Shown here: positions 1 through 33,945 of the stretch, in pieces
How the letters are laid out: every line of letters begins with the position of its first letter
Position numbering within the stretch: the stretch's first letter is position 1
IMG/VR virus record: IMGVR_UViG_3300000929_000088
Location: 1 to 34,746 of that record
Source: a virus
DNA: 34,746 nt
Reading direction: 5' to 3' (one strand)
The notes under the pieces: generated by a model
Told to the model about the DNA's origin: nothing
Databases searched by the model: none
Seen by the model: only the letters and a program-made list of their open reading frames with translations
Program-made: the position numbers and the translations under genes

Positions 1-163
1 AGACAAAAACATGAGTAAATTGACATTTTTTCACCTCATTGATTTTGATAGGTCTCTTTGATTTGTATAGGGGTCTGGAGATACTAGGAGTCCAGAAATA
101 GGATAAAGTGTCTTAAATGGCTTCTAAATGGCCTTAGAATTGATTCTATGATATGGGATGGAA
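1..163. other. Left-end non-coding region
   Basis: No convincing gene is visible. The stretch holds one copy of the five-copy intergenic element (core 92-135), followed in the minus direction by a short inverted repeat TCTGGA...TCCAGA and the 13-mer TCCAGACCCCTAT, also found at the 30844 copy. If the window ends were joined, transcription from here would enter the gene starting at 34679. Confidence 0.6.
92..135 (-). repeat. Five-copy intergenic element, copy A
   Basis: Read on the minus strand it follows the shared pattern AGGCC-N-TTTA, then ATTTAAGA-N-ACTTTA, then TTTCTGG. It closely matches the plus-strand copy at 30844-30887, including the downstream TCTGGA/TCCAGA inverted repeat. It sits just past the terminator of the early operon. 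By position it is a candidate promoter for whatever lies beyond the left end, which is the 34679 operon if the molecule is circular or permuted. Confidence 0.75.
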
Positions 164-192
164 TAAAAAAAGGGAGCCATCTCTGACTCCCC
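164..192 (-). terminator. Rho-independent terminator of early operon
   Basis: On the minus strand GGGAGTCA and TGGCTCCC form an 8-bp stem with one mismatch and a 4-base loop, followed directly by seven T residues. It begins about 20 bases after the stop of the SSB-like gene, the last gene of the early module. Confidence 0.85.
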
Positions 193-212
193 TCTTTCAC
201 TTCATGCACTCC

Positions 213-578
213 CTAGAATGGAAGGTCATCATCATCATCAGATGATTTGGCTCTACCATTTGAATCCACTTTCACACTGTTGGTCTTTCCACTTGCTGGA
301 GAGATGAGGTCACATGTCCATCCACTCAAAGATGTGAAGTACTTGACATCCCCACTGGGAGAGGTCCATGCTCTTCCTCTGATGTTCACTGCTGCCTCCA
401 CTACATCTCCCACAGAAAAATTCTTTGGTATGCTGGCAGAATCATTGGGCCACTCTGTCATGAGAGTCTGAGGATAGTCCTCTGATGTTTCAATGACCAT
501 CTCCACCTTGGAGAATTTGTCTGTGACTGTGATGATGTCACTGATGGACTTGATAGTCCCCTTTACTTTTGTACTCAT
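213..578 (-). CDS. SSB-like protein (DUF3127 type)
   Basis: A 121-residue protein that probably binds single-stranded DNA during phage replication and recombination. The body (residues 3-95) reads as an OB-fold of the DUF3127 type found in Bacteroidota and their phages. The tail is low in complexity and ends in an acidic run closing with DDLPF. Such a tip is the classic SSB C-terminal peptide that recruits partner proteins (established for bacterial SSBs; inferred here). It lies directly downstream of the exonuclease and the ERF annealing protein, so the three form a recombination cassette. The start codon follows an A/T-rich leader with no Shine-Dalgarno site. It is the last gene before a strong terminator. 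Confidence 0.8.
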   Translation of the reverse strand: MSTKVKGTIKSISDIITVTDKFSKVEMVIETSEDYPQTLMTEWPNDSASIPKNFSVGDVVEAAVNIRGRAWTSPSGDVKYFTSLSGWTCDLISPASGKTNSVKVDSNGRAKSSDDDDDLPF

Positions 579-580
579 AT

Positions 581-1423
581 TTATTGGTTTAAAAAATTAC
601 TATTTAACTCCTCCAGATACTCTCTGGCCATTGTCACTGATTCCTTGATTAGGAAGATGTACTCATCATCCTTGAGGAATTTATACAGTTTCACTCTGTT
701 CTCCTCTGGGATGTCCCCAAAGGTCATGGAGAATCTTATCTCATCCTCCAATTGCTCTGGAATCTCAATGAATCCATTGGCCCACTCTTGCCTTCTTATC
801 TCATCCAGAATCAATCTCTCTGGTGTATCCACTAGGCAGTACACAAGCTGATATTCATCCTTTCCAGTCAGCCAAAGATATCCTTGACCTTGGGCATAGT
901 AGGCTGGGTCAATGTCATTCTTGAAGTGTGGGAATGTGTGGATGTTCCATGAGGATTTGGCATCTGCCAGAAGTTCCTTGATGTTGAGGTCTGGCTCTCC
1001 AGTGATGTATTCATTAGAGAGTCTGTTCTTTCTGAATTCTACCCCATCAATCACCTCTGTGTCTAGTCCCCATCTCAGTACTCTATTGGCCATCTGCATG
1101 GATTCTGTCTCCACCTCAAGACCCTTGTCTGTGTACTTGTTTGAGAAATCCTTTGGCCTATTGAATGTCATCTCCACCCATAGGCCCTCCAGATAGGTCT
1201 TGGCTCCTTTGCTCAGTTCTGGCTTTGCATCCATCTTCTGCTGCAGTACATCTCTCCTCTTCGCTTGGATGTCAGTGAGTTTGATTTTCTCCAGAAGAGT
1301 CTTCAATTCATCCTTCTGATTGTCAGTGATTTGGGTCCCTCGGCCCACACTGGTGATGTGACTCAGAGCAGAGCATCTGAATAGATACCCACTCCAGTCA
1401 ACAAGTTCAATGCTCTTCTTCAT
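581..1423 (-). CDS. PD-(D/E)XK exonuclease, YqaJ/lambda-exo-like
   Basis: A 280-residue nuclease that probably resects double-stranded DNA ends to make the single strands used by the ERF protein. The core shows GEPD (142-145) followed by LLADAKS (151-157), which fits the PD-(D/E)XK metal site, and a downstream QGQGY (178-182) matching the conserved Gln motif of RecB/YqaJ-type nucleases. An acidic stretch at 103-108 may add a further metal ligand. The start overlaps the ERF stop by four bases (ATGA), so translation is coupled. An exonuclease beside an annealing protein is the usual phage two-component recombination arrangement. The exact subfamily is uncertain; the fold is well supported. Confidence 0.8.
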   Translation of the reverse strand: MKKSIELVDWSGYLFRCSALSHITSVGRGTQITDNQKDELKTLLEKIKLTDIQAKRRDVLQQKMDAKPELSKGAKTYLEGLWVEMTFNRPKDFSNKYTDKGLEVETESMQMANRVLRWGLDTEVIDGVEFRKNRLSNEYITGEPDLNIKELLADAKSSWNIHTFPHFKNDIDPAYYAQGQGYLWLTGKDEYQLVYCLVDTPERLILDEIRRQEWANGFIEIPEQLEDEIRFSMTFGDIPEENRVKLYKFLKDDEYIFLIKESVTMAREYLEELNSNFLNQ

Positions 1424-1932
1424 TCGTCTAATTTTTTGATTTGTTCATCACTCAGAGAGTACTTGTTCTCCAGTTCCTCTCTACTATACTCACCAGCCAG
1501 AATTGCCTCCAGTGCCTTCTTGAATCTTGAGTCTGCCAGTGCTGGCTTTTTTGGATTTGTAGGCTGACCAGCAGCATCAGAATCTGAGTCTGTGACTAGG
1601 CATAGCATCCCAGAGATGTGGTATCTCTTTGAGTAGGAGATGGCAGACCCCATGACTTGGAATTCATTCATCCCTTTTAGTTGGACCCCTTGAGGGATGT
1701 CCATTGTCCCCTCTATTGTCTCACCAGACTCCACATGGAAGACAATAGTGGTCAGACTTGTCCCACTCACTATCTGAGTGAATCCCAGACCATGCTTGGC
1801 CAGAAGTGGATTGATGACTCTCAGAATCTCAGAGAGACTGGTGTATGTGTATCCATACCCCTTGGTGTTCTTGTGGATGACTGGGACCTCTTGAGAGAAT
1901 CCAGCCAGAGCCTTGCAAAAATTTGCGTTCAT
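1420..1932 (-). CDS. erf: ERF-family single-strand annealing protein
   Basis: A 170-residue recombinase that anneals complementary single strands, as in the P22 Erf family. The N-terminal 120 residues carry family signs: YTYTSLSEILRVINPLLAKHGL (19-40 region), a hydrophobic core, and the GSAISYSKRYHISGMLCLVTD region, which is the common ERF signature. The last 45 residues look like a flexible linker and helical tail. It overlaps the exonuclease start by four bases, and the SSB-like gene follows, so it is the middle gene of a recombination cassette. The leader before the start is AATCAATAAACAGTTAAAT, A/T-rich and formed partly by the end of the preceding gene. Confidence 0.85.
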   Translation of the reverse strand: MNANFCKALAGFSQEVPVIHKNTKGYGYTYTSLSEILRVINPLLAKHGLGFTQIVSGTSLTTIVFHVESGETIEGTMDIPQGVQLKGMNEFQVMGSAISYSKRYHISGMLCLVTDSDSDAAGQPTNPKKPALADSRFKKALEAILAGEYSREELENKYSLSDEQIKKLDE

Positions 1933-1942
1933 ATTTAACTGT

Positions 1943-2170
1943 TTATTGATTACTACTATTATCCTTCACCTCATCATAATCACCAGATTCTGAGAAGTTG
2001 CTCATCCAGATTGTGACCATGGCTCTGGCCTCATTTCTAGTCATTGCAAAGTGTGCCTCCACATAAGGTGCAGCACCCCACATGTTGGTGTCCCCAGATT
2101 CTCTGAGGTCATTCAGATACTGGAAGACCTCTCTCTCCAGTTCTGTTGTTGGTCTCATTTTTTGTCCCAT
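1943..2170 (-). CDS. Small hypothetical early protein
   Basis: A 75-residue, largely helical protein of unknown function. It begins MGQKMRPTTE; a second ATG at codon 5 (2158) is an alternative start. The leader AAATCAAGAAAA is A-rich, as expected for Bacteroidota translation. It ends in Asn-Gln-stop, and the CAATAAA of that stop region doubles as the leader of the next gene. Position just upstream of the ERF gene suggests an accessory role in early replication or recombination, but nothing in the sequence proves this. Confidence 0.6.
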   Translation of the reverse strand: MGQKMRPTTELEREVFQYLNDLRESGDTNMWGAAPYVEAHFAMTRNEARAMVTIWMSNFSESGDYDEVKDNSSNQ

Positions 2171-2180
2171 TTTTCTTGAT

Positions 2181-2873
2181 TTATTGATTTACACTATTTG
2201 ATGACCTTGATGCAATCCACTCACCTCCTTTGTACTTGATGAATGTCTTGGCCTCCTTCAATGTCTTGCACCAGTTTGCCAGATTCCCACTTGAATCATG
2301 CTCCACTATGTAGGTCCTTGGATTGTCATCCACTGATTCATATCTGGATTCAATTTGCTTGTATGAAGATGATGGATAGACTTTCCACTTCACTCCTTTG
2401 TAGTCCACCATCCACCCATCTGACCTCAGAGGTCTGGACCATCTTGTGAGATTCACATCACTCACATCTGCTCCCATCAATCTGGCTCTCTTCCTCATGT
2501 AGTTGAGACAATTCTCTTGAGCCACTTTCCTCAGTGGTTTGTTGGTCTCAGCATTCCAGATGGTGTCCAATATCCACATGATTTGTTCTCCTTTTTGGCA
2601 GTGGTAGCCTCTCATCCAGATGACCAATGGATGACCCTTCCAAATCACTGGCAGACCCACTCTCCACTTGCTCCAGATGTAGCTGCCATTGTTTGGCTTG
2701 AATCTCTTCACATTCCTCCCTAGAGTGGATGTCTCTGACTCATAACTCCCAGAGATATCATTCTCAATGAGAATCTCCATCTCCTTGATGCCATTGCCAA
2801 CAAAGTGGATGTTTGCCCTTTTAGTGAATGACTGGGATAGGGCCTTCATTTGTTTCAGTTCTTGAATATACAT
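2181..2873 (-). CDS. Hypothetical early protein
   Basis: A 230-residue soluble protein that I do not recognise. It is rich in Trp, Tyr and basic residues (for example KGVKWKVYPSSSYK) and begins with a basic amphipathic helix. There is no clear catalytic motif, signal peptide or membrane segment. The C-terminal part, with GNLANWCKTLKEAKTFIK, looks like a small alpha/beta unit of a kind often seen in small phage proteins. The leader AACTAATAAAACAGATAGAC is A-rich. It sits in a run of tightly spaced early genes. The end SVNQ-stop resembles the terL end, a trait of several genes here where CAATAA serves both stop and next leader. Confidence 0.6.
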   Translation of the reverse strand: MYIQELKQMKALSQSFTKRANIHFVGNGIKEMEILIENDISGSYESETSTLGRNVKRFKPNNGSYIWSKWRVGLPVIWKGHPLVIWMRGYHCQKGEQIMWILDTIWNAETNKPLRKVAQENCLNYMRKRARLMGADVSDVNLTRWSRPLRSDGWMVDYKGVKWKVYPSSSYKQIESRYESVDDNPRTYIVEHDSSGNLANWCKTLKEAKTFIKYKGGEWIASRSSNSVNQ

Positions 2874-2891
2874 GTCTATCTGTTTTATTAG

Positions 2892-3353
2892 TTATCTATA
2901 CAAGTGAAATCCATCTCCACCATTCTCTCTGTTCTCCATGATGAGGTCCCTAGTGGATGACTGGAAGTCCTCTGCATCCTCATGGCTGATGTATGTCCAT
3001 GTGACTGGTCCCTCTGCCCATTCCCCAGCATTCTCTTGGGACTTATAAAACTGCTCCACTGATTCATATCTGGACAAATTTGTGGACTCACACATGTCAC
3101 AGTCTCTGCTCCAGACAATCATGCAAAAGTGTCCATGTGTCAAAATATCGCTTTCATAGATGACCTCTGCTGCACGTTCTCTCCTCTCCCTTTCCTCTGC
3201 ATCCTTTTTGATACGTTTCGCCCTTAAAACGTCTGAAAATACGCTTTTCATTAGATTCTTGTACATTGAGGGTCTTATTTCATTCCCTTTACCCTTTGCA
3301 TTGATGATGGCATTGATTGCAATCATTCTCTGCTCTCTTGTGATTTGATTCAT
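2892..3353 (-). CDS. Hypothetical early protein with CpG-normal N-terminus
   Basis: A 153-residue protein without recognised family. The N-terminal third is strongly basic and helical (RAKRIKKDAEERERRER, about 40-57) and could bind nucleic acid or form a coiled coil; the rest is acidic and contains three Cys (CMIVWSRDCDMC). The DNA coding for roughly residues 35-69 (3147-3250) holds at least six CpGs, while flanking genes have almost none, so this part may have come from elsewhere. A minus-strand hairpin near 3371-3392 lies in the leader between the ArdC stop and this start. Function is unknown. Confidence 0.6.
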   Translation of the reverse strand: MNQITREQRMIAINAIINAKGKGNEIRPSMYKNLMKSVFSDVLRAKRIKKDAEERERRERAAEVIYESDILTHGHFCMIVWSRDCDMCESTNLSRYESVEQFYKSQENAGEWAEGPVTWTYISHEDAEDFQSSTRDLIMENRENGGDGFHLYR

Positions 3354-3369
3354 TTCTCTGATGTGTTAA

Positions 3370-3392
3370 GGGGAGGACCAGATGGCCCTCCC
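3370..3392 (-). other. Intergenic hairpin downstream of ardC-like gene
   Basis: GGGAGG and CCTCCC form a 6-bp stem around a 10-base loop, in the 53-base gap after the ArdC-like stop. No T-tract follows on the minus strand, so a full terminator is unlikely. It resembles the hairpin at 4398-4418 on the other side of the same gene; both begin CTGGGAGG and are followed by TTAA on the minus strand. RNA processing or stabilisation is a plausible role. Confidence 0.5.
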
Positions 3393-3406
3393 AGATTTAT
3401 ACTTGA

Positions 3407-4375
3407 TTAAATATTTGATTTGATTAGTTCCACAGATTTGACTGCTTGAGTCATTGCTGAGACACATGCCTTCTTGTCATCCTTGAGCCTTGTGGTCCAT
3501 CCCTTGATGTATGCTTGAGAGTTCTCATCATTATCTTTGGGATTGAGACCACAATCTCCAGACAAGTACATGGATGATATCTCTGCCACCAGTTCCTCCT
3601 TTGCATAGGTCTCATCTCCCCAAGTTTTCACATCTGTCAAGGTGTCTCTGTTCAGTCTGTCCTTGTGTCCAGTTGAGTGTGACATCTCATGAAATAGAGT
3701 CTTGTAGTATGTGTCAAGGTCACAGAAGTCTTCCTCATGGGGCATGTTGATTGAATCTGTAGAAGGTCTGTAGTAGGCTCCTCCTCCTCCATGTCCCAAT
3801 GATGGACCAGACTCTCCTCCAATGTATCCCAGAATCACTGCCTCTGCCATCTCATTTGGAGTCTGCTCAGTCCCCTCAATCTTCTTGTCCAGACCCTTTG
3901 GCTCAAGGCCATCAATCTGGTCAATGTTAAACACTGAGAAGTATCTCAATGTGAAACATTTTTTAAATCTCTTTGCAGAGAATGTCAGTCCAGCCTTCTT
4001 GATGTCCTCCAGAGTATTGTAGTACTTTTTTGACTCCTTGTCCAAATATGATATCTTCCAGAGAAAGACCTCAGTGGACTTCTCTCCTCTCTTCACTTGA
4101 CCACCATTGGCCTTGGCTTGGTTGTATGTCATCCACTCATTTGCACTGTATCCCTCTCCTCTCATCATGGCATTGAGCCAGAAAATATTGAATCCATTGT
4201 ATGCCTTCCCAGTTGCCCAATTGATTGGTCCAGATGAGTCTTTCCATCCCATAAACCATCTCAGACCTTCTTTCTCCAGACCAGCAATGACCACATCATT
4301 GATGCGGTCATAAATATCCTTAGAATCTGATGATGATGTCTTGATTGCTTTGCTTGATTTTGTGATTGTTTTCAT
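3407..4375 (-). CDS. ArdC-like antirestriction protein
   Basis: A 322-residue protein of the ArdC type: an N-terminal ssDNA-binding domain (about 20-150, with RWFMGWKDSSGPINWATGKAYNG-like features) and a C-terminal zincin-like metallopeptidase domain. The zinc site is visible as HEMSH (229-233) with a downstream acidic helix KEELVAEISS (259-268) giving the third ligand. Known ArdC proteins protect incoming DNA from host restriction and have ssDNA-binding activity. An early position and the genome's avoidance of GATC and CpG fit pressure from restriction. The start follows the motif AAAACACGAC, shared with two other early genes. Hairpins flank the gene on both sides, suggesting separate control of its mRNA. 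Confidence 0.85.
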   Translation of the reverse strand: MKTITKSSKAIKTSSSDSKDIYDRINDVVIAGLEKEGLRWFMGWKDSSGPINWATGKAYNGFNIFWLNAMMRGEGYSANEWMTYNQAKANGGQVKRGEKSTEVFLWKISYLDKESKKYYNTLEDIKKAGLTFSAKRFKKCFTLRYFSVFNIDQIDGLEPKGLDKKIEGTEQTPNEMAEAVILGYIGGESGPSLGHGGGGAYYRPSTDSINMPHEEDFCDLDTYYKTLFHEMSHSTGHKDRLNRDTLTDVKTWGDETYAKEELVAEISSMYLSGDCGLNPKDNDENSQAYIKGWTTRLKDDKKACVSAMTQAVKSVELIKSNI

Positions 4376-4389
4376 GTCGTGTTTTTTTT
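4376..4389 (-). promoter_or_regulatory. Early leader motif AAAACACGAC before ardC-like start
   Basis: Minus-strand AAAAAAAACACGAC ends directly at the ATG. The same AAAAACACGAC occurs before the starts at 5267 and 9376. It contains a CpG, rare in this genome, so conservation is probably functional, either as translation leader or regulator site. Confidence 0.6.
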
Positions 4390-4397
4390 ATGATTAA

Positions 4398-4418
4398 GGA
4401 GGTGGACTATCCACCTCC
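4398..4418. other. Perfect intergenic hairpin upstream of ardC-like gene
   Basis: GGAGGTGGA and TCCACCTCC pair over nine bases around a 3-base loop CTA. It lies between the stop at 4444 and the ArdC-like start. There is no good T-tract on either side, so attenuation, mRNA processing or stability is more likely than simple termination. Confidence 0.6.
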
Positions 4419-4443
4419 CAGTGTGATTTTCTACTTTATTAAT

Positions 4444-5082
4444 TTAGCATGCTCCTAGTTTACTCATGACCTCCTCCATGGTTGGACCAGATGCCATCTC
4501 ATTGGATATCTTATTCAATATGTTCTGTATTTCCACCACATCAGCCATCTGTTGCTTCATGTCATACTTTCCCAGACCAAAGGACTGGATGGCTCTCCTC
4601 CTTGTCATGATGTCACTAACTACATCAAAAAAAGCAATCAAGAGATGGTCTTCCTCAAGCACCAGTTTTGCATCCACCTTGTTCATCACCTTAACCATCC
4701 CAAGGCTTCTGTCCTTGATTTCTGTTGTGTTCAAGACTTTCTTTGCATCTGCCACCTTTGCCTCATTTGACATCTCTTGAAGATTCACAATTTCACCATT
4801 TATCATGATTCCAGAGATGTGAGCATATTTCTCAATGTGAGACCAGATTTCCTCAAAAAATTCAAGTTGATTTGAATAGATATGGATGTCTGGAGTCATC
4901 AGTTCTCCAATGAATGTCTCTCTCCAGATGTTCACATCATTAACTGCAGAGGACACATAGTGAAATGTGGATTGAGTTTGTGTATCATAGTTAATTTTAA
5001 ATTTTATTGTAAAATTATCAGATTTCAAAATTGCTGCTCTCAGATTTGATTTGCTTGTGAAAATGTTTTTTCCTAGTTCCAT
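4444..5082 (-). CDS. Hypothetical early protein
   Basis: A 212-residue protein beginning MELGKNIFTS. The reading frame is open farther up to a GTG at 5151, but the ATG at 5082 is preceded by AAAAAAAAATAGGAATC, the A-rich leader typical here, and the upstream part overlaps another small gene, so the shorter form is preferred. The protein is mixed alpha/beta in the first half and helical in the second, without Cys-rich, membrane or catalytic motifs that I can name. It sits between a small basic protein gene and the ArdC-like gene in the early operon. Function is unknown. Confidence 0.65.
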   Translation of the reverse strand: MELGKNIFTSKSNLRAAILKSDNFTIKFKINYDTQTQSTFHYVSSAVNDVNIWRETFIGELMTPDIHIYSNQLEFFEEIWSHIEKYAHISGIMINGEIVNLQEMSNEAKVADAKKVLNTTEIKDRSLGMVKVMNKVDAKLVLEEDHLLIAFFDVVSDIMTRRRAIQSFGLGKYDMKQQMADVVEIQNILNKISNEMASGPTMEEVMSKLGAC

Positions 5083-5111
5083 GATTCCTATTTTTTTTTG
5101 ATTTAACTTGA

Positions 5112-5267
5112 TTACTTGATTAGACCTATTTGCACTCTTAACTGGATGCACTTGTTGTGATTGAATCCATAAATCTCAATCATAGCTTGGTGTTTAGCCT
5201 TTAGCTTGATGATTCTTCCTTCCTTAGTTCTTGAGTTAACTTGCTGATTTTGAGATACTTGTGTCAT
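5112..5267 (-). CDS. Small basic early protein, 51 aa
   Basis: A 51-residue basic protein beginning MTQVSQNQQV and ending IGLIK. It has KGRI-like and KLKAKH basic patches and no Cys pairs or membrane segment. Support for it as a real gene comes from its leader: AAAAACACGACAAA directly before the ATG, the same motif as upstream of 4375 and 9376. It ends 29 bases before the start at 5082. A small DNA- or RNA-binding or host-takeover protein would fit an early position, but this is only inferred. Confidence 0.6.
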   Translation of the reverse strand: MTQVSQNQQVNSRTKEGRIIKLKAKHQAMIEIYGFNHNKCIQLRVQIGLIK

Positions 5268-5270
5268 TTT

Positions 5271-5281
5271 GTCGTGTTTTT
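5271..5281 (-). promoter_or_regulatory. Early leader motif AAAAACACGAC before 51-aa gene
   Basis: Second of three copies of the CpG-containing leader. Here three further A residues separate it from the ATG. Confidence 0.55.
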
Positions 5282-5283
5282 CG

Positions 5284-5370
5284 TTATTGCCTTATGGCAT
5301 TACAAAGGTAGTCAAGGGATTCACTTATCCAAATTTTGTCATCACTTTTTTCAATTAAAAGTGTACTCAT
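5284..5370 (-). CDS. Possible micro-protein, 28 aa
   Basis: A 28-codon frame beginning MSTLLIEKSD and ending CNAIRQ, with the A-rich leader GATTCAGAAAA before its ATG. It fills most of the gap between NinG and the 51-residue gene, and the stop is just before the shared leader motif. Codon choice looks like that of its neighbours. It could be a genuine small early gene or chance; the promoter candidate at 5303-5333 overlaps its 3' half. Confidence 0.35.
   Translation of the reverse strand: MSTLLIEKSDDKIWISESLDYLCNAIRQ
5303..5333 (-). promoter_or_regulatory. Candidate flavobacterial-type promoter
   Basis: Minus-strand TTTG (5333-5330), a 19-base spacer, then TACCTTTG (5310-5303) match the Bacteroidota -33 TTTG / -7 TAnnTTTG pattern. 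A start site near 5296 would give a leader of about 30 bases for the gene at 5267. It overlaps the possible 28-residue frame, which lowers certainty. Confidence 0.4.
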
Positions 5371-5418
5371 TTTTCTGAATCCCTTTCTGTGACTGAGTTT
5401 CAAGACCACAAAAAAAGT

Positions 5419-9389: not shown

Positions 9390-9455
9390 ATGTTTGGCCA
9401 AAGATAAAGTCAAATAAATCTTAATTCCTAATTTTTAGCAATAAATCTCACATTT

Positions 9456-9551
9456 GCCCATTATCACTGGGATACAGAGCATTTTGTTAAATAAATATAC
9501 TTTTTTGTTAAAAAACTAACACTGCCCCTCTACAGCCCAGTGTTTATGGGC
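9456..9551. promoter_or_regulatory. Operator-like region upstream of early operon
   Basis: GCCCATTATCACTGGG (from 9456) and GCCCAGTGTTTATGGGC (9535-9551) are each small inverted repeats. Between them lies TGTTAAAAAACTAACA (9506-9521), fitting TGTTA-N6-TAACA. The same palindromic motif occurs at 24588-24603 and 33785-33800, and the GCCCA hairpin again at 24633-24649. By position this is the 5' leader or control region of the early operon. Confidence 0.55.
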
Positions 9552-9585
9552 ATTCTTCATATCTTTTATTTTTGATACTACCACC

Positions 9586-9629
9586 CCAGAAAGGTACTAA
9601 AGTCTCTTAAATCGTCTCTAAATGGCCTT
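9586..9629 (-). repeat. Five-copy intergenic element, copy B
   Basis: Minus-strand AAGGCCATTTAGAGACGATT followed by TAAGAGACTTTA and TTTCTGG. It follows the late terminator at 9674-9706 and precedes the early operon. The ACGATTTAAGAGACTTTA core is identical to the copy at 30844. Confidence 0.8.
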
Positions 9630-9673
9630 AAATCGAATTTGTGTTTTTTTCAAATTAGGCATTTTTCAAGCAT

Positions 9674-11429: not shown

Positions 11430-11467
11430 TGTTAAAAATTTCACAATCCGGTGGTGTAAATTTAACA
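11430..11467. promoter_or_regulatory. Operator-like palindromic element before lysis genes
   Basis: Starts TGTTA and ends TAACA. Its first 24 bases (11430-11453) are exactly repeated, in inverse orientation, at 33799-33822 in front of the GP88 gene. It contains CCGG, one of the rare CpGs. In both places it lies about 20-25 bases before an A-rich leader and ATG, so a shared regulator or RNA structure is likely. The only GATC I noticed in the window is next to it (11422-11425). Confidence 0.6.
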
Positions 11468-11468
11468 T

Positions 11469-11813
11469 TTATTTAGTCATTATTTTCTCCACCATCTTCT
11501 GTATCTCTCTCACAATTCTCAATTCCATCTGGGCCATGTTGGTCTCCAGTTTCTGGTGTCCTTGGTGGACCTCTTTCTGTAGTTCTGTAAATTCTCCACG
11601 CATGTCATCAATTCTCTTGTGGAGTGCAGTGTTCATCTCCTTCTTTGCATCCTTGAGGTCTGCAAGTTGTTTCTCTTGCTCCAGATTTTTTGCTTGCTCT
11701 AGGTCAATTCTGCTCTTGAGTTTGACATAGGCTCCCACTGCTCCCACTATTCCAGAGGATGCACCAATCAGCACATCTAGGCCCACTCTGTAGTCTTCCA
11801 AATTTTCTGCCAT
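11469..11813 (-). CDS. Holin-like or lysis-associated membrane protein with coiled coil
   Basis: A 114-residue protein with one N-terminal hydrophobic segment (IGASSGIVGAVGAYV, about 17-31) followed by a long coiled coil (about 35-110, LEQAKNLEQEKQLADL then heptad repeats). Single-span proteins with such coils are found in phage lysis cassettes and may act as holin, holin regulator or membrane tether. The start shares one base with the upstream stop (TAATG). The operator-like element at 11430-11467 follows it, so it may close the tail group or open the lysis group. Confidence 0.55.
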   Translation of the reverse strand: MAENLEDYRVGLDVLIGASSGIVGAVGAYVKLKSRIDLEQAKNLEQEKQLADLKDAKKEMNTALHKRIDDMRGEFTELQKEVHQGHQKLETNMAQMELRIVREIQKMVEKIMTK

Positions 11814-17853: not shown

Positions 17854-18058
17854 GTTTCTGAGTTATTTCATTTATTGCATCCACATCTCCATTCTTGATG
17901 CTCTTCAAAATCCTACTCATATCTGCACGAATTGGAGCCACTTTAATACTGGCATCTTGAGGAATCTTAGACAGATGTGCATCCAGAATGTTTGTCATTC
18001 TTTTCAAGTCTGTCAGAAGGCTCTTCTCTATGTCTTTAATGTTCCTTTTGTTGTCCAT
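17834..18058 (-). CDS. Small tail-cluster hypothetical protein
   Basis: A 74-residue basic, helical protein (MDNKRNIKDI at the start). It follows the tail hub candidate by two bases and overlaps the next gene by 20, so it is clearly translated in the cluster. An assembly factor or tip chaperone is plausible, but no family is recognised. Confidence 0.55.
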   Translation of the reverse strand: MDNKRNIKDIEKSLLTDLKRMTNILDAHLSKIPQDASIKVAPIRADMSRILKSIKNGDVDAINEITQKHANTNR

Positions 18059-24603: not shown

Positions 24604-24826
24604 TGGTTTGTTAAATTTTCAACGAGCCTCTAGCCCAGTGTTTATGGGCATCCAGCACTTCTCTGATTTTCCATACTACGACACCAGAAAAGCACTAAAG
24701 TCTCTTAAAACGCATTTAAATGCTATTTATGGCCATTTGCCACTTTTTCAATAATTCCATTTTTTTGAGCAAAAATCACCTTGAAATTGACTCAAAATTT
24801 GTCCACATTTAACTCCTAAATTTAGC
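24604..24826. other. Control region between tail-tube and tail operons
   Basis: About 220 bases without a gene. It holds the terminator of the capsid and tail-tube operon at its right edge (24827), the five-copy element (24684-24736), the 23-base block shared with 33871-33893 (24653-24675) and the GCCCA hairpin 24633-24649. Nothing else is evident. Confidence 0.7.
24684..24736 (-). repeat. Five-copy intergenic element, copy C
   Basis: Minus-strand GGCCATAAATAGCATTTAAA, then TTTTAAGAGACTTTA and TTTTCTGG. It is the most divergent copy, with about nine extra bases in the first half. Downstream it shares CAGCACTTCTCTGATTTTCC (on the plus strand) with the 33902 copy. Confidence 0.7.
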
Positions 24827-24856
24827 AAAAAAGGGGTGCATTTTCACACACCCCTT
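24827..24856 (-). terminator. Terminator after 53-aa gene
   Basis: Minus-strand AAGGGGTG and CACCCCTT form an 8-bp stem around a 10-base loop, followed by TTTT. It closes the capsid and tail-tube operon about 30 bases after the stop at 24886. Confidence 0.85.
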
Positions 24857-24885
24857 CCACCAATTTATCCACTAAATTCTCCAGA

Positions 24886-25047
24886 CTATTTGCTTGGAGT
24901 TTTTCCTTTTTTTGGATTTGCTTGCTGGTGTGCTTCCTTTACAATATCCCTCCGAATGTGTCCAAAATTTTCATAGGCCTCACTCAATTTGACTCCTTCA
25001 AGTGACTCAAATGAAAAGCACAAATTTCCAATTTTGATATTTTTCAT
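24886..25047 (-). CDS. Small protein after tail tube, 53 aa
   Basis: A 53-residue protein beginning MKNIKIGNLC and ending GKTPSK. It has a strand-turn at the start, an acidic-polar helix (ESLEGVKLSEAYENF) and a basic tail. It starts 10 bases after the tail-tube stop and ends right before a terminator, so it is the last gene of the capsid operon. It may be a small tail component or chaperone. The frame and placement are convincing; the function is not known. Confidence 0.65.
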   Translation of the reverse strand: MKNIKIGNLCFSFESLEGVKLSEAYENFGHIRRDIVKEAHQQANPKKGKTPSK

Positions 25048-27196: not shown

Positions 27197-27200
27197 TGTC

Positions 27201-27410: not shown

Positions 27411-27426
27411 TGTGCTTGTATTGTAA

Positions 27427-27470: not shown

Positions 27471-27480
27471 ATTAAATCAA

Positions 27481-28716
27481 TTAAGGCTGCAGAAGTGTTG
27501 CTTTATCAAGTGCAAAATTACCCTTAACAAATGCACCCACATTGTTTGACTTAACATAGTGACAAGCACGAGCCTCACACAATACAGTCATCATGTTGCG
27601 TGTGAAATCGTCATTGATATATCCCACTTGAATATTCAAATCCTCTCTCATTCTCACGTTTGACTTCGTGAAGTCTCCAACTAAATAATCTCCAGATGTT
27701 ACTCCATTGTTTGCCACCACTGGCACTGATGCCACTCTTGTGATTCCATCTGCCATAGGCACAAAGATTGGAAGAGTGTACTCACCAGTGGATGATTTTG
27801 TCAATTCCATAGCTGCCAAATCTGCTGGATTCATCAAGATGTAGTTTGCCATGAAATCTGCATTGGCAATCTGTGCCATTGCCACTCTCAATACATCCAA
27901 ATCATTTGCAAAAGGAATGGCTCCCACAAATTGTGCTGCTGGAGTGAAAGGTTGTGCATAAGACAATAAACCAGTAAGATTGTCACCAATTCCATCACCA
28001 GACAAAATCTGCTCATCAAGTTTCAATTCTACAATCTCAATCAATTCATTGTTAATCTCTCCACGCATGAATGACAAATCATCCACCATCTCCTTGGATA
28101 CCTTAATCCATGCAGCCACTTTTTTCACCTCTGCAGATGCCTCTACAAGGTCAAAATCTGCTTGAGGCTTTGCCACACCTTCTCCTACCATTCCAGCACC
28201 ACCTTCTGGATTCTTTTGCTCAATCCAAACTGCATATTTGTTGGTGATTCCAGCACTGTTGGAAAGTTCTCTCATGAATGGCTTTCTGCGTACAATACGA
28301 GAAACACCAGCCTCAAGTTCTGACAGACCTACAGTACCACCAGAATAGTTGCCAGTGATTGTCATGTCTCCCACTGCTTTGATTGCAAGATTCATCACTC
28401 CACCCTTCTCTCTGATGCTCTTGATTGCATCAATGTTGTCTGCAAATGCCTTGGAGATTGCATCCTTCAATCCCAATTTTTTTGCTGGCTCATCTGCTTT
28501 CTCCTTCAATCCAGCAAATTTTGCCTCAAGATTGGTGATGGCTGACTTCATTGCAGTTGCCTCATCATTCTTGTCATTCTTTTCAATCATTGTCTTGATT
28601 GATGTGATGTCCTCCTTGATTGAGTTCATCTCTTCCTTTGATGCAGTTCCTTGCATCTTCTCAGTGATTGAGTTGTTTATTTTTTCAATCACTTGTTCTG
28701 GGGTCATGTTCTCCAT
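27481..28716 (-). CDS. Major capsid protein, HK97 fold
   Basis: A 411-residue major capsid protein that builds the icosahedral shell. The N-terminal 105 residues are charged and helical (delta-like scaffold domain, with long coiled coils), to be removed by the protease encoded next door. The HK97-like body follows (about 115-411), with GNYSGGTVGLSELEAGVSRI, AAWIKVSKEMVDDL, the EQILSGDGIGDNLTGL loop, NYILMNPADLAAMEL and the C-terminal ACHYVKSNNVGAFVKG. Length and order fit the family. The leader AAAAACGAGAGGAAAC precedes the ATG. A hairpin follows the stop. Confidence 0.92.
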   Translation of the reverse strand: MENMTPEQVIEKINNSITEKMQGTASKEEMNSIKEDITSIKTMIEKNDKNDEATAMKSAITNLEAKFAGLKEKADEPAKKLGLKDAISKAFADNIDAIKSIREKGGVMNLAIKAVGDMTITGNYSGGTVGLSELEAGVSRIVRRKPFMRELSNSAGITNKYAVWIEQKNPEGGAGMVGEGVAKPQADFDLVEASAEVKKVAAWIKVSKEMVDDLSFMRGEINNELIEIVELKLDEQILSGDGIGDNLTGLLSYAQPFTPAAQFVGAIPFANDLDVLRVAMAQIANADFMANYILMNPADLAAMELTKSSTGEYTLPIFVPMADGITRVASVPVVANNGVTSGDYLVGDFTKSNVRMREDLNIQVGYINDDFTRNMMTVLCEARACHYVKSNNVGAFVKGNFALDKATLLQP

Positions 28717-28722
28717 GTTTCC

Positions 28723-28732
28723 TCTCGTTTTT
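28723..28732 (-). promoter_or_regulatory. Late leader motif AAAAACGAGA before capsid gene
   Basis: Matches the AAANCGAGA motif of the tail-tube and amidase leaders, 6 bases before the capsid ATG. It contains one of the few CpGs of the region. Confidence 0.55.
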
Positions 28733-28734
28733 AG

Positions 28735-29505
28735 TTAAAAATTATTACCTACTTTATTCCAATCAAATGCTTTGGGAATGGTCTCCAAAATATCGGCTGA
28801 GTGACCCTTGACAGTCGGCTCAGTGATGGCAAGGTCCATCATTCTAGCATTTAAAAACTTCAACCTCATCTCAAGGTTGTATTGTCTTTCATCTGTTCCC
28901 TTCCCATTGAAAATGGACTTGGTGATGACTTGTATCTCTTTATTCAATTCAATAGCCAAATCTCTCCTCTCATGACCTTTGGCCACATCTATCACTCCAG
29001 TGTACTGGTTAGCACCAAAAGTCACCGCAGAGAATTCCCAGAGGGCCAATTCTGACACCTTGAAAAATCCTCCAGCATCAAGGCTCTTGTCCTCTATGAA
29101 TTCAATCTTGTCAGATATGTATTTGAATCCAATTGAATGCTCTCTAATGATTCCATCTTTGTAGTCCTCCAGTGCATCCTTTCCATCTGTAGAGTTCCCC
29201 AATTTTGCCACCACAAAGAGGCCATTGTTGTCTTCCTCCATGGTCATTGGAAGTCCTATCTGTTTCTGCCAGTCATGATGTCTGAGGAATGCAATCTGTC
29301 TATTTGAGCCAGATTGTGGACCTCTCTCAGCAAGTGACTTGGTGAAGGCTCCCTTGACAATCATGTCCCCATCTGAGTCTATTGTGTCAAAGGATGAGAC
29401 ATACATGGCCACCTCTCTTGATGAAAGGTCCAAGTCCTTCAATGCGAAGGCTCCCTTGATGCTATAGTCTCCCAGAGAGACTCTGCTTGATTTTCTCATA
29501 ATCAT
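28735..29505 (-). CDS. Prohead maturation protease, HK97 family
   Basis: A 256-residue serine protease that trims the capsid scaffold domain during head maturation (family U35/S78). Catalytic residues are visible: His in LRHHD (76-77), Ser in REHSIGF (Ser124) and Glu in ALWEFSAVTFGANQ (157). The N-terminal EVAMYVSSFDTIDSDGDMIVKGAF (31-54) is the typical start of the domain. It ends 18 bases before the capsid start. On its upstream side it faces the divergently oriented portal gene across a 107-base region with several palindromes, an unusual arrangement. Confidence 0.93.
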   Translation of the reverse strand: MIMRKSSRVSLGDYSIKGAFALKDLDLSSREVAMYVSSFDTIDSDGDMIVKGAFTKSLAERGPQSGSNRQIAFLRHHDWQKQIGLPMTMEEDNNGLFVVAKLGNSTDGKDALEDYKDGIIREHSIGFKYISDKIEFIEDKSLDAGGFFKVSELALWEFSAVTFGANQYTGVIDVAKGHERRDLAIELNKEIQVITKSIFNGKGTDERQYNLEMRLKFLNARMMDLAITEPTVKGHSADILETIPKAFDWNKVGNNF

Positions 29506-29612
29506 GTGAATTATTATACAAAATTAACTAATTTTGTGCAGATATGATTAAAATCTAATCAATCATTGATTAAAAAATGCTCAAAATCATAAGCAAAATA
29601 TCTGCATAGCGT
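29506..29612. promoter_or_regulatory. Palindrome-rich divergent region between protease and portal
   Basis: Three inverted repeats are packed in 88 bases: ACAAAATTAACTAATTTTGT (29518-29537, perfect 9-bp arms), TAATCAATCATTGATTA (29556-29572, perfect 8-bp arms) and an outer pair GCAGATAT (29538-29545) / ATATCTGC (29598-29605) that brackets the second. The genes on either side are divergently oriented. Divergent promoters with regulator sites, or a structured DNA site, are possible. No five-copy element is present here. Confidence 0.6.
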
Positions 29613-30833
29613 ATGGGACAAGGGAATGACAATACATTCTGGGCCAATTTTTTTGGACTGAATCCAAAGGAGAACCAGAGACACATCAATCAGTGGGGAC
29701 TGAATTGGGGAAGTTCAATAGAAAACAGAGTCTGGGGAGTCAAGCAGCCCATCTGGATAGACACACATGATGCTTATCTCCATTATTTGGAAGTCCCAGA
29801 GTTGAGGACAGTCATCAATAAGAGAGCAGACATGATGGCCTCTGCCTTTCCAATTCTAGTAGATAGGGATGGAGAGAGAGTGGAGAATCACTGGGCCATT
29901 GACCTAGTGGAGAATCCAAATCCCACACAGTCATGGAGTGATGTGATATTCAGTCTCTCAGTAAATGACTCATTGTACAGTAATGTGTTCGCCTATGCAC
30001 CAAAGAGGTCCTTTGGAGTGGTCAATCTATTGGTCCCACTTCCTTCTGACAAGATTGTCATCAATACCACTGGGAAGAGACTCAGACAGATGGACATAGA
30101 GGGTCTCATTAGAGACTTCCAATTCTGCTATGATGATGGAAACAAGGACACACTGGAAGTGGATGAGGTCATCTATCTGACCACCCCAGATGGTCTGAAC
30201 ATCATCAATCCCAACAGTCGAATGGATGCCCTCAAGTATCCCCTATCAAATATCAGAGCAGCCTACAACAAAAGAAATGTCCTTCTGGAGAACATTGGAG
30301 CCATAGGAATCCTCTCAGCACAGAAGGGAGACATGGGAGGAGCAATCCCAATGACCCCAGAGGAGAAGTATGACATCCAGCGTGACTGGTACAGAAGGTC
30401 AAAGGATGAATTGATTATCACTGAGGCAGATGTCTCATGGCAGCCCATGTCATTCCCTACAAAAGACCTCATGCTCTATGAGGAATTAACTGCAGACAAG
30501 ATGGCCATTGTGGATATCTTCGGCCTCAACTCCTATGTGTTCAGCCAAGAGAAGGGAGCCACATTCTCCAATGTGAAGGAAGGTCTGAAAATGGCATACC
30601 AGACATCCATCATCCCAGACACTGAGGCCATGTATGATGGACTCTCTGAGCAGCTAGGTCTCACAAAGGATGGATTGAGATTGGTCCCAGATTTCACACA
30701 TGTGCAAGTGCTGGCAGAAGATGAGAATGAAGCAGCTAAAGCATTGGACACAAGAGCAGCAGCACTCCTCAAGATTCAGCAGTCTGGAGTCATATTGACA
30801 GATGAAGAGATGAGACTCATCCTCAATCTATAG
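29613..30833 (+). CDS. Portal protein, HK97 type, inverted orientation
   Basis: A 406-residue portal forming the dodecameric DNA gate of the head. The phage_portal family pattern is visible in ELRTVINKRADMMASAFPI (64-82), the WAIDLVENPNPTQSWSDVI block, DEVIYLTTPDGLN, and the C-terminal VDIFGLNSYVFSQEKGATFSNVKEG region, then a helical crown with DEEMRLIL. An in-frame stop (29607-29609) just before the ATG fixes the start. It is the only plus-strand gene, though it sits in the standard place between terL and the protease. Its base composition matches the rest of the genome, so foreign origin is unlikely. A five-copy element follows it in the same flipped orientation. Confidence 0.93.
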   Translation: MGQGNDNTFWANFFGLNPKENQRHINQWGLNWGSSIENRVWGVKQPIWIDTHDAYLHYLEVPELRTVINKRADMMASAFPILVDRDGERVENHWAIDLVENPNPTQSWSDVIFSLSVNDSLYSNVFAYAPKRSFGVVNLLVPLPSDKIVINTTGKRLRQMDIEGLIRDFQFCYDDGNKDTLEVDEVIYLTTPDGLNIINPNSRMDALKYPLSNIRAAYNKRNVLLENIGAIGILSAQKGDMGGAIPMTPEEKYDIQRDWYRRSKDELIITEADVSWQPMSFPTKDLMLYEELTADKMAIVDIFGLNSYVFSQEKGATFSNVKEGLKMAYQTSIIPDTEAMYDGLSEQLGLTKDGLRLVPDFTHVQVLAEDENEAAKALDTRAAALLKIQQSGVILTDEEMRLILNL

Positions 30834-30843
30834 GATGCCCATA

Positions 30844-30887
30844 GAGGCCCTTTAGAGACGATTTAAGAGACTTTATCTCATTTCTGG
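30844..30887 (+). repeat. Five-copy intergenic element, copy E, inverted
   Basis: Plus-strand GAGGCCCTTTAGAGACGATT followed by TAAGAGACTTTA and TTTCTGG. It lies between the convergent portal and terL ends and is opposite in orientation to the other four copies. Downstream TCTGGAC...GTCCAGA (30882-30906) forms a perfect 7-bp inverted repeat, and TCCAGACCCCTAT is shared with copy A. Confidence 0.8.
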
Positions 30888-30908
30888 ACCCAAACTATGT
30901 CCAGACCC

Positions 30909-32336
30909 CTATTGATTCACGCTGGAATGTCTAAAAGTTCTCAGCATGGACTGCATAAACATGGCCAGTCCAGCAGCACAATCTGGAGCATCATCATTCC
31001 GATTCTTGCCCTCCTTGGAGAATGAGTACATGTTCTCCATGAATTGGACACAGTCTGGAGTCTCTCTCTGGACCCACTTGAAAGTGTTGAGGATGAATGC
31101 ACTCTGCATGATGATTCTGGTCATCTTGTTTGTAGTGTTGTGGACTTGGAGAATCTTGGCCCTTGTCTGCCTTGACAATTCCCTTGAGTACATGGCTCCC
31201 ATGCTATTGGATTCCACTCTGCAATATGAGACCCTCCACTTGTTCAGTATGGCTGCAGCCAGTGGGATAGTCACATCAGTATTCTCTCTGGTGTAGATGT
31301 AGTCCACAATATAAATCTCTGACCCTATCACTGCACCCACTATCAGAGCCATGTAGTCATTCCCTTGGTCTGCCACATCTATGTAAGCAAAGGAGCCATC
31401 CATGAGAGTCTCTCTTCCATTGTGTTGGGCATTCATTGGCTCTGGTGTGACTGCTCTGATGTAGTCCTCTGGAGATACAATCTGCATCCCTCCAAAGAGT
31501 CTGCCCTCCATGTCCACTGGCTGCTGCTGATACTCTGCCAGCCATATCTCTTTGGCCATCCTTGACCTCTTCTCATGATACTCCTCAGAGGTCATCACGT
31601 TCTCACAGAAGGACCTATCATGGTCATCCAGTGCTGAGACCACAATACTCTCCTCATAATCACCACCAGCCATGGCCTCTCCAATGACATCAGATACAGA
31701 CCATCTGGTCCCTATGTCTATCCTTGAGCATCCACTCTCCATCCTTGAGTCATGAGTGGCACTCTTCCACTGTTTGATTGAGTCATTCTTTGTGTCACTC
31801 AGTGCATCCTCAAGGCCTCTGTATAAGTCATCTGTGATGGCTACCTTGGTGGCTCCAAATCCTATGATTGTCCCACCTACTCCAGCACCAAAATAGGACA
31901 CCATCCTTGCCTTGGTAGTGTTCCATCCTTGGAGATTCTTTTTGTCATCTGAGAGCCTCACTGGGAAGACCTCCTTGAATCTATCACTGTTCACTATGGC
32001 CCTCACATCATAAGAGAATTTAAGATACAGAGTGGCAGTGCATGTGTTCCTCATCACTGAGTCAGATGGATTCCTCCCCAATGTCCATGCACAGAATAAA
32101 GATGTGAGATATGACTTCCCAGCACGAGGAGGCATGGATACAGATAGGCTCTTGATGGCTCCCTCTTCCACTCTCTGGAAAGCATCTGCCACCTCCTTGA
32201 GGAATGGTCTGGCCTCAAAGAATTCCTTGTCATAGTACAGACAAAACTGCCAGAGATTCCTTCTGGATACTTCCCTCATCACTATGAGTCTCACATGGTC
32301 CTTAGATGTCATCATTGGGTCCAGATTTGGATTCAT
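30909..32336 (-). CDS. terL: Terminase large subunit
   Basis: A 475-residue DNA-packaging motor. ATPase: Walker A MPPRAGKS (68-75), Walker B VAITDD (165-170), coupling-type GTRWS (209-213). Nuclease (RNase H-like): Asp320 in YIDVADQGND, Glu375 in RVESNSMG, Asp448/449 in RNDDAPD. All key acids are present, so packaging and cutting should work. The start overlaps the small subunit by 35 bases. The stop is inside the repeat region behind the portal gene. Family is clear (Terminase_6-like C-terminus). Confidence 0.95.
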   Translation of the reverse strand: MNPNLDPMMTSKDHVRLIVMREVSRRNLWQFCLYYDKEFFEARPFLKEVADAFQRVEEGAIKSLSVSMPPRAGKSYLTSLFCAWTLGRNPSDSVMRNTCTATLYLKFSYDVRAIVNSDRFKEVFPVRLSDDKKNLQGWNTTKARMVSYFGAGVGGTIIGFGATKVAITDDLYRGLEDALSDTKNDSIKQWKSATHDSRMESGCSRIDIGTRWSVSDVIGEAMAGGDYEESIVVSALDDHDRSFCENVMTSEEYHEKRSRMAKEIWLAEYQQQPVDMEGRLFGGMQIVSPEDYIRAVTPEPMNAQHNGRETLMDGSFAYIDVADQGNDYMALIVGAVIGSEIYIVDYIYTRENTDVTIPLAAAILNKWRVSYCRVESNSMGAMYSRELSRQTRAKILQVHNTTNKMTRIIMQSAFILNTFKWVQRETPDCVQFMENMYSFSKEGKNRNDDAPDCAAGLAMFMQSMLRTFRHSSVNQ

Positions 32337-32922
32337 TTAGTAGGTCCAGAAGTTGGTCAGTAGAGTACCCAGATAGGTCTGGAGAATCAGTCTCCACCTT
32401 GACCTCTTGTCTCTCTATGTATCCCCTCTCCTTCCCCTTGGTCTTGAGGTAGAATATCACTGCAGCAGTATTCCCTCTTCCTATCAGTTTGAGCAGTTGA
32501 GACTCAGCGAAGTCCAGAGCCTTATTGGACAGTGATTCATAGGCCATCTTATACTCTCTGGACTCCCTCATCCACTTGTAGTGATTCGTTCTGCTTATGC
32601 CCAGCGTATCACATGCAGTCTGGACTATCCCCATGGACTGCTCCAGTGCTGCCAGTAGATTAATCTGGAGAGGATTCAAATCAGTCTCCTCCAGAATCAT
32701 GACCTCTGGAGATTGGCTCACCTCTGGGACCTCCTCAATCCTATGCTTGCATAATACCTCATTTTTCTGGTCTGGTTGGTCAAAATCGCAAAAATCGCTT
32801 TTTTGTATGTTCACTTCTGTACATCTCGCGTGTGTTTTTTCACCTTTTCCTTTTTTCATTTTTTCTCTTTTAGTAGTTTCTGGAGGCACTTCTGGACCTA
32901 TCTGGACTCTTGTCTCACTCAC
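32302..32922 (-). CDS. terS: Terminase small subunit candidate
   Basis: A 206-residue protein directly upstream of, and overlapping, terL. The middle has a helix-turn-helix (QTACDTLGISRTNHYKWMRES, about 109-129) as in phBC6A51-like small terminases that bind the packaging site. Helical stretch SNKALDFAESQLLKL and FYLKTKGKERGY follow, typical of the family. The first 65 residues are basic and poorly ordered, and part of their DNA (about 32785-32860) is CpG-richer than the rest. It would recognise the phage DNA for packaging. Confidence 0.8.
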   Translation of the reverse strand: MSETRVQIGPEVPPETTKREKMKKGKGEKTHARCTEVNIQKSDFCDFDQPDQKNEVLCKHRIEEVPEVSQSPEVMILEETDLNPLQINLLAALEQSMGIVQTACDTLGISRTNHYKWMRESREYKMAYESLSNKALDFAESQLLKLIGRGNTAAVIFYLKTKGKERGYIERQEVKVETDSPDLSGYSTDQLLDLLNESKSGPNDDI

Positions 32923-33139
32923 TCTGTGATTGTGTCTCTCTTCTTATACGTTTTTTTTCTTGCTCTTTTTTAGCAACTTCACTTTGAGTATACAAATCAA
33001 TACATTTCTTATCGTATGAATGGAAATCCAATTCAGTTCCATCGGCTTTTCTAACTGATGTATGGGAATAATCACTTATTTTTTCCTTACACCAATCACA
33101 ATAAGTGATTGTCATTTCAACCATTTCCCTTTTCTTCAT
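32915..33139 (-). CDS. Small zinc-finger protein
   Basis: A 74-residue protein with CDWC (14-17) and a later H...KKCIDLY (40-48), giving a likely CxxC...HxxxxxC zinc site, and a basic Lys/Arg/Glu tail. The gene is more AT-rich than its neighbours and has CpGs, so it may be a recent arrival. Its 5' coding part carries a 10-bp inverted repeat (33070-33110). It overlaps the terS start by 8 bases. Function unknown; DNA or RNA binding is possible. Confidence 0.65.
   Translation of the reverse strand: MKKREMVEMTITYCDWCKEKISDYSHTSVRKADGTELDFHSYDKKCIDLYTQSEVAKKEQEKKRIRRETQSQSE
33070..33110. repeat. 10-bp inverted repeat within zinc-finger gene
   Basis: AATCACTTAT (33070-33079) and ATAAGTGATT (33101-33110) are perfect inverted arms around a 21-base loop, inside the first 25 codons. 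It could fold in the mRNA near the start codon and reduce translation. Confidence 0.5.
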
Positions 33140-33172
33140 CTTATTCTGTTATTGTTTCAATTTTTAGCCAAA

Positions 33173-33763
33173 TTATTTGCTGAAATTATCAAGGAGGCAG
33201 AAGTTGACTCTGGGAGTCCTTGCTTGCTCATCACATGTGTCAATGGGTCTGCCATTGGCTTGCTCCTTGGTCTTTATTATCTCCACATTCTTGAGGTCAT
33301 GCTCTTCAATCAGTTGGTCATGTTTGCCTCCTCTACTTGCAGTCAATATGAGATTCTCTGGAATTGAATCCAATCTGTTGACCCAGTATGTGAGGCTCTT
33401 CGTATAGGCCCAGAATTCCACAGATGGATGCTCCTTGCATATCTGGAGCCACATGTCAAAATAGTCTTGAGAATAGAAGTCACCACTCATGTGGATTCTG
33501 ATTGCATTGGCTTGAGATGGAATGACTGGGATTCCTCCAGACCTTAAAAAGTCAAAGTTTTTCCACCTATGCTCCCTCACTGCTGGGAATCTTTCTTGCA
33601 TTGCAGAATAACATCTGTAGGCATTGCTCTTGTTTTCAAATTTGCCAGATATTCTATCCACCTTGACCAGACATTCAAGAGCAAAAGGACAAGAGAATCC
33701 ACTTGGAAGATTCCACTCATAGACTGTCCCTAGATAGTATTTTGTCTTCTTCAAAAATTTCAT
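33173..33763 (-). CDS. GP88-like phage protein
   Basis: A 196-residue protein that resembles the Gene product 88 family: YEWNLPSGFSCPFALECL (about 14-31), a CYSAMQE block, IRIHMSGDFYSQDYFDMW (near 91-108), WAYTKSLTYWVNR, LTASRGGKHD and a late TCDEQA. The biochemical role of the family is not established. The frame is open to 33892, but the upstream part runs through repeat sequences; the ATG at 33763 has the leader CCAAAAAATCACAAA and is preferred, 33823 being an alternative. Palindromes at 33785-33822 lie just upstream. Confidence 0.65.
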   Translation of the reverse strand: MKFLKKTKYYLGTVYEWNLPSGFSCPFALECLVKVDRISGKFENKSNAYRCYSAMQERFPAVREHRWKNFDFLRSGGIPVIPSQANAIRIHMSGDFYSQDYFDMWLQICKEHPSVEFWAYTKSLTYWVNRLDSIPENLILTASRGGKHDQLIEEHDLKNVEIIKTKEQANGRPIDTCDEQARTPRVNFCLLDNFSK

Positions 33764-33784
33764 TTTGTGATTTTTTGGATGAAT

Positions 33785-33822
33785 TGTTAAAATTTTAACA
33801 CCGGATTGTGAAATTTTTAACA
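33785..33822. promoter_or_regulatory. Operator-like palindromes upstream of GP88-like gene
   Basis: TGTTAAAATTTTAACA (33785-33800) is a perfect 16-bp palindrome. It adjoins a 24-base block (33799-33822) repeated exactly, in inverse orientation, at 11430-11453 near the lysis genes. Together they form a site of about 38 bases ending about 20 bases before the A-rich leader. Confidence 0.65.
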
Positions 33823-33901
33823 TTGTGTTATTTTTATTTTTCGCTCTGTATCCCAGTGGTAGTGCGGATTCAGCACTTCTCTGATTTTCCATAGTGAGAT
33901 A

Positions 33902-33945
33902 CCAGAAATGGCATAAAGTGTCTTAAATCGAAGATAAAGGGCCTC
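33902..33945 (-). repeat. Five-copy intergenic element, copy D
   Basis: Minus-strand GAGGCCCTTTATCTTCGATT followed by TAAGACACTTTA and TTTCTGG. Downstream it shares a 23-base block (33871-33893) with the 24684 copy. It lies between the ParB-like gene and the GP88-like gene, upstream of the terminase operon. Confidence 0.8.

Follow-up and report, generated by a model that had tools for sequence, protein, structure and literature searches.

Five phased repeats between the operons of a tailed phage, candidate binding sites for host DNA gyrase

To our knowledge, strong sites for DNA gyrase are known mainly from single cases, namely phage Mu and the plasmids pSC101 and pBR322, and from a degenerate motif of Escherichia coli. 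The BIME-2 sites of E. coli are multicopy, intergenic and associated with gyrase; we know of none at the operon joints of a phage. Described here is an element which is present five times in a tailed phage, IMG/VR record IMGVR_UViG_3300000929_000088 (34,746 nt; this whole stretch of DNA is called the window in the following). The original prediction had proposed for it a phage-specific promoter, an antitermination or replication site, or the target of a sigma factor or regulator. A function missing from that list, a gyrase site, appears to be the best fit: each copy is probably a site which the DNA gyrase of the host binds strongly and wraps, and which would serve between operons as a topological boundary or sink. 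This reading is favored because the arm-36-arm geometry of the element, its 10–11-bp phasing and its register on Mu match the published gyrase site, and because the element is intergenic irrespective of orientation and has a counterpart upstream of gyrB in host genomes; all of these features can be read directly from the DNA.

Relation to Described Gyrase Sites

The gyrase motif derived from Topo-Seq in E. coli consists of a 36-bp core and two 47-bp periodic arms with a GC period of 10.75 bp (PMC6379681); it was later restated together with structures, and in the wrapped structure the pinwheel takes up 48 bp, next to a gate segment of 35 bp (PMC12393610). In the Mu gyrase site one phased arm dominates (PMC10052514), and gyrase cuts it at A/AATCA and T/GATTT (PMC9886550).

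The strong gyrase site of Mu, with its cuts at ~17,876–17,880, is in several respects the closest counterpart of the element: it is intergenic at an operon boundary within the late genes (the end of gene G, then a terminator and the late promoter), its AT/GC-phased arms surround a 36-bp core with one arm dominant, and the profile of the element peaks at the Mu cleavage centre. However, the Mu site is single, central and active in transposition, whereas the window phage has five near-identical copies at operon joints, and the element is nearly invariant in sequence and palindromic in many relatives. Similarly, the E. coli motif has arms and core of 47-36-47 as compared to 44-36-44 in the element, and the same 10–11-bp phasing, but is degenerate and missed by motif finders, while the element is detectable by exact pattern search. 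The par locus of pSC101 is likewise a gyrase site on an extrachromosomal element and coincides, by the location we assume for par, with the best profile position of the plasmid; unlike the element it is single copy and functions in partition, and the two have no base sequence in common. BIME-2 sites, as generally described, share with the element the multiple copies, the intergenic location and the association with gyrase, but are of other sequence and origin.

Five Copies in the Window

All five copies named in the original prediction are present, four on the minus strand (136 to 92, 9630 to 9586, 24728 to 24684, and 33946 to 33902) and a single one on the plus strand (30843–30887). This is far beyond chance: the 15-bp core ATTTAAGANACTTTA has six matches with up to two mismatches where 0.24 are expected, and no shuffle reached six. 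The repeat had been described by three boxes; two of them, AGGCC-N-TTTA and ATTTAAGA-N-ACTTTA, are indeed exact in four copies and the third, TTTCTGG, is present in all five, the copy at 24684 having diverged (ATAGC..., TTTTAAGA) yet being alignable from end to end. The boxes do not delimit the element, however, as the conserved unit comprises ~130 bp per copy and its regular feature is a TTT every 9–11 bp together with a 36-bp spacer. A GC/AT profile trained without the window ranks the five copies 1, 2, 3, 4, and 22 of 34,615 window positions. The predicted gyrase footprints, each based also on a position weight matrix match, are as follows (handles with G or L denote related genomes).

21–152, minus strand: copy 92; strong arm 105–148, core 69–104, weak arm 25–68, centre 86.5; end of the SSB/recombination operon on one side and, if the ends join, gene 34647–33967 on the other; profile rank 4 of 34,615; the L005 counterpart lies between SSB and a nuclease-like gene.

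9515–9646, minus strand: copy 9586; strong arm 9599–9642, core 9563–9598, weak arm 9519–9562, centre 9580.5; endolysin gene on one side, replication operon on the other; profile rank 3 of 34,615; in G008, G017, and L103 comparable sites lie behind a gene of similar size, ahead of the next operon.

24613–24744, minus strand: copy 24684; strong arm 24697–24740, core 24661–24696, weak arm 24617–24660, centre 24678.5; upstream of the tail gene 24586–24125; profile rank 1 of 34,615; kept beside the tail-gene homologue in G003, G004, G014, G022, and G023.

30827–30958, plus strand: copy 30844; strong arm 30831–30874, core 30875–30910, weak arm 30911–30954, centre 30892.5; flanked by portal (plus) and terL (minus), whose 3′ ends converge on it; profile rank 22 of 34,615; weaker counterpart at the matching junction in L005 and L006.

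33831–33962, minus strand: copy 33902; strong arm 33915–33958, core 33879–33914, weak arm 33835–33878, centre 33896.5; between gene 34647–33967 and the terminase operon; profile rank 2 of 34,615; position before the terminase operon kept in G004, G014, and L005.

The Element in Related Phages

A pattern search found the core in many other viral contigs; it is present in the intergenic regions of relatives, often at matching gene junctions, and in L097 and L110 directly upstream of an apparent terL. Iterating a weight matrix over 234 loci yielded 190 matches above 16 bits (none above 12 in reversed sequence), and 107 non-redundant phage sites were left after copies more than 75% identical had been dropped. 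The phage and host ranges obtained by such pattern scans are lower bounds, and the gene calls in the relatives are mechanical open reading frames; matches in L090 and L102, and the look-alike in L120, were dropped as they resemble matches to coding sequence.

The conserved half of the element is a 44-bp arm, about nnAAATnnnnTTTAAGGCATTTTnAAGCGATTTAAGACACTTT, in which TTT or AAAT recurs one helical turn (10–11 bp) apart. Many relatives have a second, inverted arm, and its distance from the first peaks sharply at 36 bp when gaps of 0–109 bp are scored: among the 16 inverted arms with positive score the gap is 36 bp in 12 and 35–37 bp in 15 or, with each palindrome counted only once, in 9 and 12 of 13 sites, respectively. 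The binomial probability of this peak is 2e-18, a nominal value because sites were treated as independent though some are from related phages. A direct second copy of the arm scored above zero at none of the 107 sites. Bacteroidota chromosomal sites outside gyrB also peak at a gap of 36 bp, and GC content is mirror-symmetric about column 61.5, the middle of the 36-bp core, both in phage sites and in those other host sites (r = 0.78 in each). The strong arm is periodic in phages and hosts (P < 0.0005), the core is not, and the second arm is periodic in the set of sites at gyrB (P < 0.0005). No report of the element was found in open-access papers.

Register on Proven Gyrase Sites

From the published cuts (PMC9886550), the centre of the Mu G-segment was placed at 17877.5. 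The GC/AT profile of the phage sites, with the core masked and neither gyrase data nor Mu in the training, has a local maximum at exactly this position (rank 24 of 36,586), with the score dropping at once at the neighboring ones, and each arm of the profile alone peaks there too. Every other even core length tested gave a worse rank than 36, an arm phase of zero was the best of 21 rotations, and the rank was reached by 0.1% of column-permuted nulls and by no random-window null. On pSC101, the best position of the whole plasmid is 4741.5, which we take to lie in par, the gyrase-binding locus, the coordinates of par being assumed.

Copies at Host gyrB

The arm also lies upstream of gyrB in 45 of the genome matches listed, which number at least 120, at a distance of ~120–460 bp and on the same strand; the gene downstream is GyrB (NCBIfam TIGR01059). 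In 19 of the match-bearing genomes searched again, exact or one-mismatch matches to the core number at most one per genome. Flanking bases outside the search pattern agree as well, 11 of 23 phage arms scoring above zero on the gyrB matrix while 99% of random sequences stay below −3.9.

These bases are near-invariant across unrelated phages and hosts, which, together with the single-copy placement at gyrB and the repeat spacing of 10–11 bp, would also be expected if a sequence-specific Bacteroidota regulator or nucleoid protein oligomerising on one-turn direct repeats bound the arm, the host target being gyrB and the phages having copied the site for control of their operons. From such a protein one would expect neither a second, inverted arm placed exactly 36 bp away nor a phase and centre equal to those of the Mu gyrase site, and no candidate was identified, though none was searched for; we regard this explanation as unlikely, but as the most serious of the alternatives.

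In many Flavobacteriaceae (e.g., L199, L210, and L249) the gyrB arm is accompanied by TTAACAAATGTTGATAATT, which contains the DnaA-box-like TTATCAACA; control of gyrB by DnaA via this sequence is possible. The DnaA-box-like sequence beside the host copy, the multicopy intergenic nature of the phage sites, and the fact that par of pSC101 is itself a gyrase site could be taken to indicate a replication origin, a partition site, or a recombination site. This is very improbable, as the five copies are scattered over operon joints, no phage recombinase or initiator was found to match, and G038, the only genome examined for GC skew, shows no switch at its gyrB site, the skew to either side staying for the most part below zero or close to it across 400 kb. 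The host copy was rejected as a chromosomal origin on the evidence of that genome, and the replication site of the original prediction is not supported. Similar sites away from gyrB were seen in L163, L169, L181, L185, L239, L243, L256, and other Bacteroidota chromosomes; some are palindromic at 35–36 bp and some lie at the 3′ ends of genes.

Placement and Orientation Relative to Genes

The layout originally described, between operons and after gene ends, holds for the window, where four copies do lie at operon boundaries, and extends to related phages, in which 77 of 101 classified sites are intergenic as compared to ~10% of the DNA. Among 58 sites between co-directional genes the arm points along the genes in 33 and against them in 25 (P = 0.36); 12 of the 77 intergenic sites, including 30844, are between convergent genes, and many sites are palindromic.

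Such placement bears on the possibility of a phage promoter, in which the last TTTA would be a −33-like box, TATYAAAAA 20 bp further on a −7-like box, and a factor on the array the activator. In its favor, the window-type group has a TATYAAAA block at a fixed ~20 bp after ACTTT, and most window copies precede operon heads. The random orientation, the sites between convergent genes, and the many palindromes do not agree with it, and in several genomes (G008, G017, G014, G004, G005, and L104) standard TAnnTTTG boxes follow downstream of the element; we therefore consider a promoter or sigma target improbable, and one of fixed orientation was rejected. A Bacteroidota sigma-A promoter (TTTG / TAnnTTTG) inside the element was rejected, since the block there is TATYAAAA; the TAnnTTTG box on the transcribed strand near the 9586 copy, at 9406, is outside the element and likely the real promoter.

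9399–9406, minus strand: TATCTTTG, Bacteroidota-type −7 box (TAnnTTTG); just upstream of gene 9376–8882, with the centre of the 9586 site ~174 bp away.

The right-hand part of the element, conserved over ~75 nt in the window-type group with an apparent NNCC...GGNN hairpin, might instead suggest a transcribed RNA element, be it an antiterminator, a leader, or a small RNA. RNAalifold found 0 pairs on 22 sequences, no Rfam match was above threshold, and many sites are on either strand relative to the genes; a structured leader was rejected on the first two grounds, and of all the explanations considered, an RNA element, including the antitermination site proposed at the outset, is the least credible. 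A coding repeat was rejected too, as the open frames which some copies show in their right-hand part are not kept between copies.

How Gyrase Might Act Between Operons

That a Bacteroidota gyrase binds the element we infer from sequence, and likewise the consequences of this binding for the phage and at gyrB. The 44-bp TTT-phased arm would wrap one GyrA C-terminal pinwheel and the 36-bp core would sit in the DNA gate; the second pinwheel would be offered the other arm, which is degenerate in the window phage but in many phages an inverted copy. Gyrase held at an operon joint could relieve the positive supercoiling that RNA polymerase pushes ahead of itself, and the site could insulate the neighboring unit and its promoters from the supercoiling of one transcription unit. 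A sink for positive supercoils would be a natural role for the phage copies, one of which lies between convergent genes and the rest after gene ends; at copy 30844 a promoter would be useless, yet positive supercoils arrive there from either side. In the hosts, the arm upstream of gyrB suggests that gyrase probably senses or regulates its own synthesis.

Several observations weigh against a gyrase site. The arm is near-invariant (GCGATTTAAGACACTTT) as opposed to the degenerate E. coli motif, so either an unusual specificity of the gyrase or a second DNA-binding protein would be needed. In the window-type phage group the periodicity of the right arm is not significant (P = 0.10) and periodicity reaches upstream of the arm, beyond the gyrase footprint; the weak arms of the window are degenerate and not inverted copies of the strong arm. 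Convergent gaps are only slightly enriched (12 of 77). The gyrB set has its best gap at 33 bp instead of 36, and its symmetric profile misses the Mu site (rank 1,856); the strong arm of that set alone peaks exactly at Mu 17877.5 (rank 591 of 73,340). The par region of pSC101 ranks 1–2 also with other core lengths, so that this test is less specific, and the site in tetC of pBR322, at the position we assume for it, was not recovered (rank 580 of 9,332). Furthermore, the gyrB sites whose neighbors were examined are between divergent genes and are therefore not explained by a sink for positive supercoils; regulation is likelier there. In the gyrB set, the site precedes the TAnnTTTG boxes of gyrB.

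A stronger version, in which the gyrase of Bacteroidota has a true sequence code, its pinwheel reading the nearly invariant phased arm, with one anchor per phage operon joint as topological punctuation and direct feedback on gyrB via the same code, is put forward tentatively, our confidence in it falling somewhat short of even. Near-invariant, often palindromic multicopy gyrase sites common to many phages and host gyrB would show that gyrase is targetable by sequence, and would suggest that supercoiling is managed operon by operon in phages. Regulation of gyrB by gyrase bound in front of the gene would become directly testable, and structural and fluoroquinolone studies of the Bacteroidota enzyme would gain ready high-affinity substrates.

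The Phage Genome Around the Copies

The window encodes the terminase, portal, head protease, capsid, tail, endolysin, DnaB, Erf, and SSB genes of a tailed phage, nearly all of its genes being on the minus strand. A blastn search with 29400–34746 against 50,697 phage records gave no match and hence no close isolate, and the terminase has distant matches only. The portal gene (29613–30833) is inverted relative to terL and protease, as it is in the closest relatives, L005 and L006, while it is co-directional in all more distant relatives examined; by this comparison the inversion appears to be clade-specific and, because it is common to L005 and L006, is unlikely to be due to misassembly or to a transient flip.

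The ATG of gene 33173–33892, at 33892, lies within the element; since the homologues in G004 and G014 begin at ATGAAATTT, translation probably starts near 33763 instead. At ~9440–9475 on the minus strand, downstream of the 9586 site, a portion of the conserved right-hand part recurs in inverted form (CTCTGTATCCCAGTG...GGGC) and could be a second, facing half-site; G008, G017, and L103 have similar inverted copies downstream of the element. A sub-threshold Rfam match to the ylbH leader at 24823–24909 on the minus strand (30.9 bits, gathering threshold 50) is probably due to chance. Finally, the window contains a second repeat pair in inverted orientation, at 11430–11470 and 33782–33822 (41 bp, 88% identity), which reads AATTGTTAAAATTTTAACACCGGATTGTGAAATTTTTAACA and is rich in TTTAAC.

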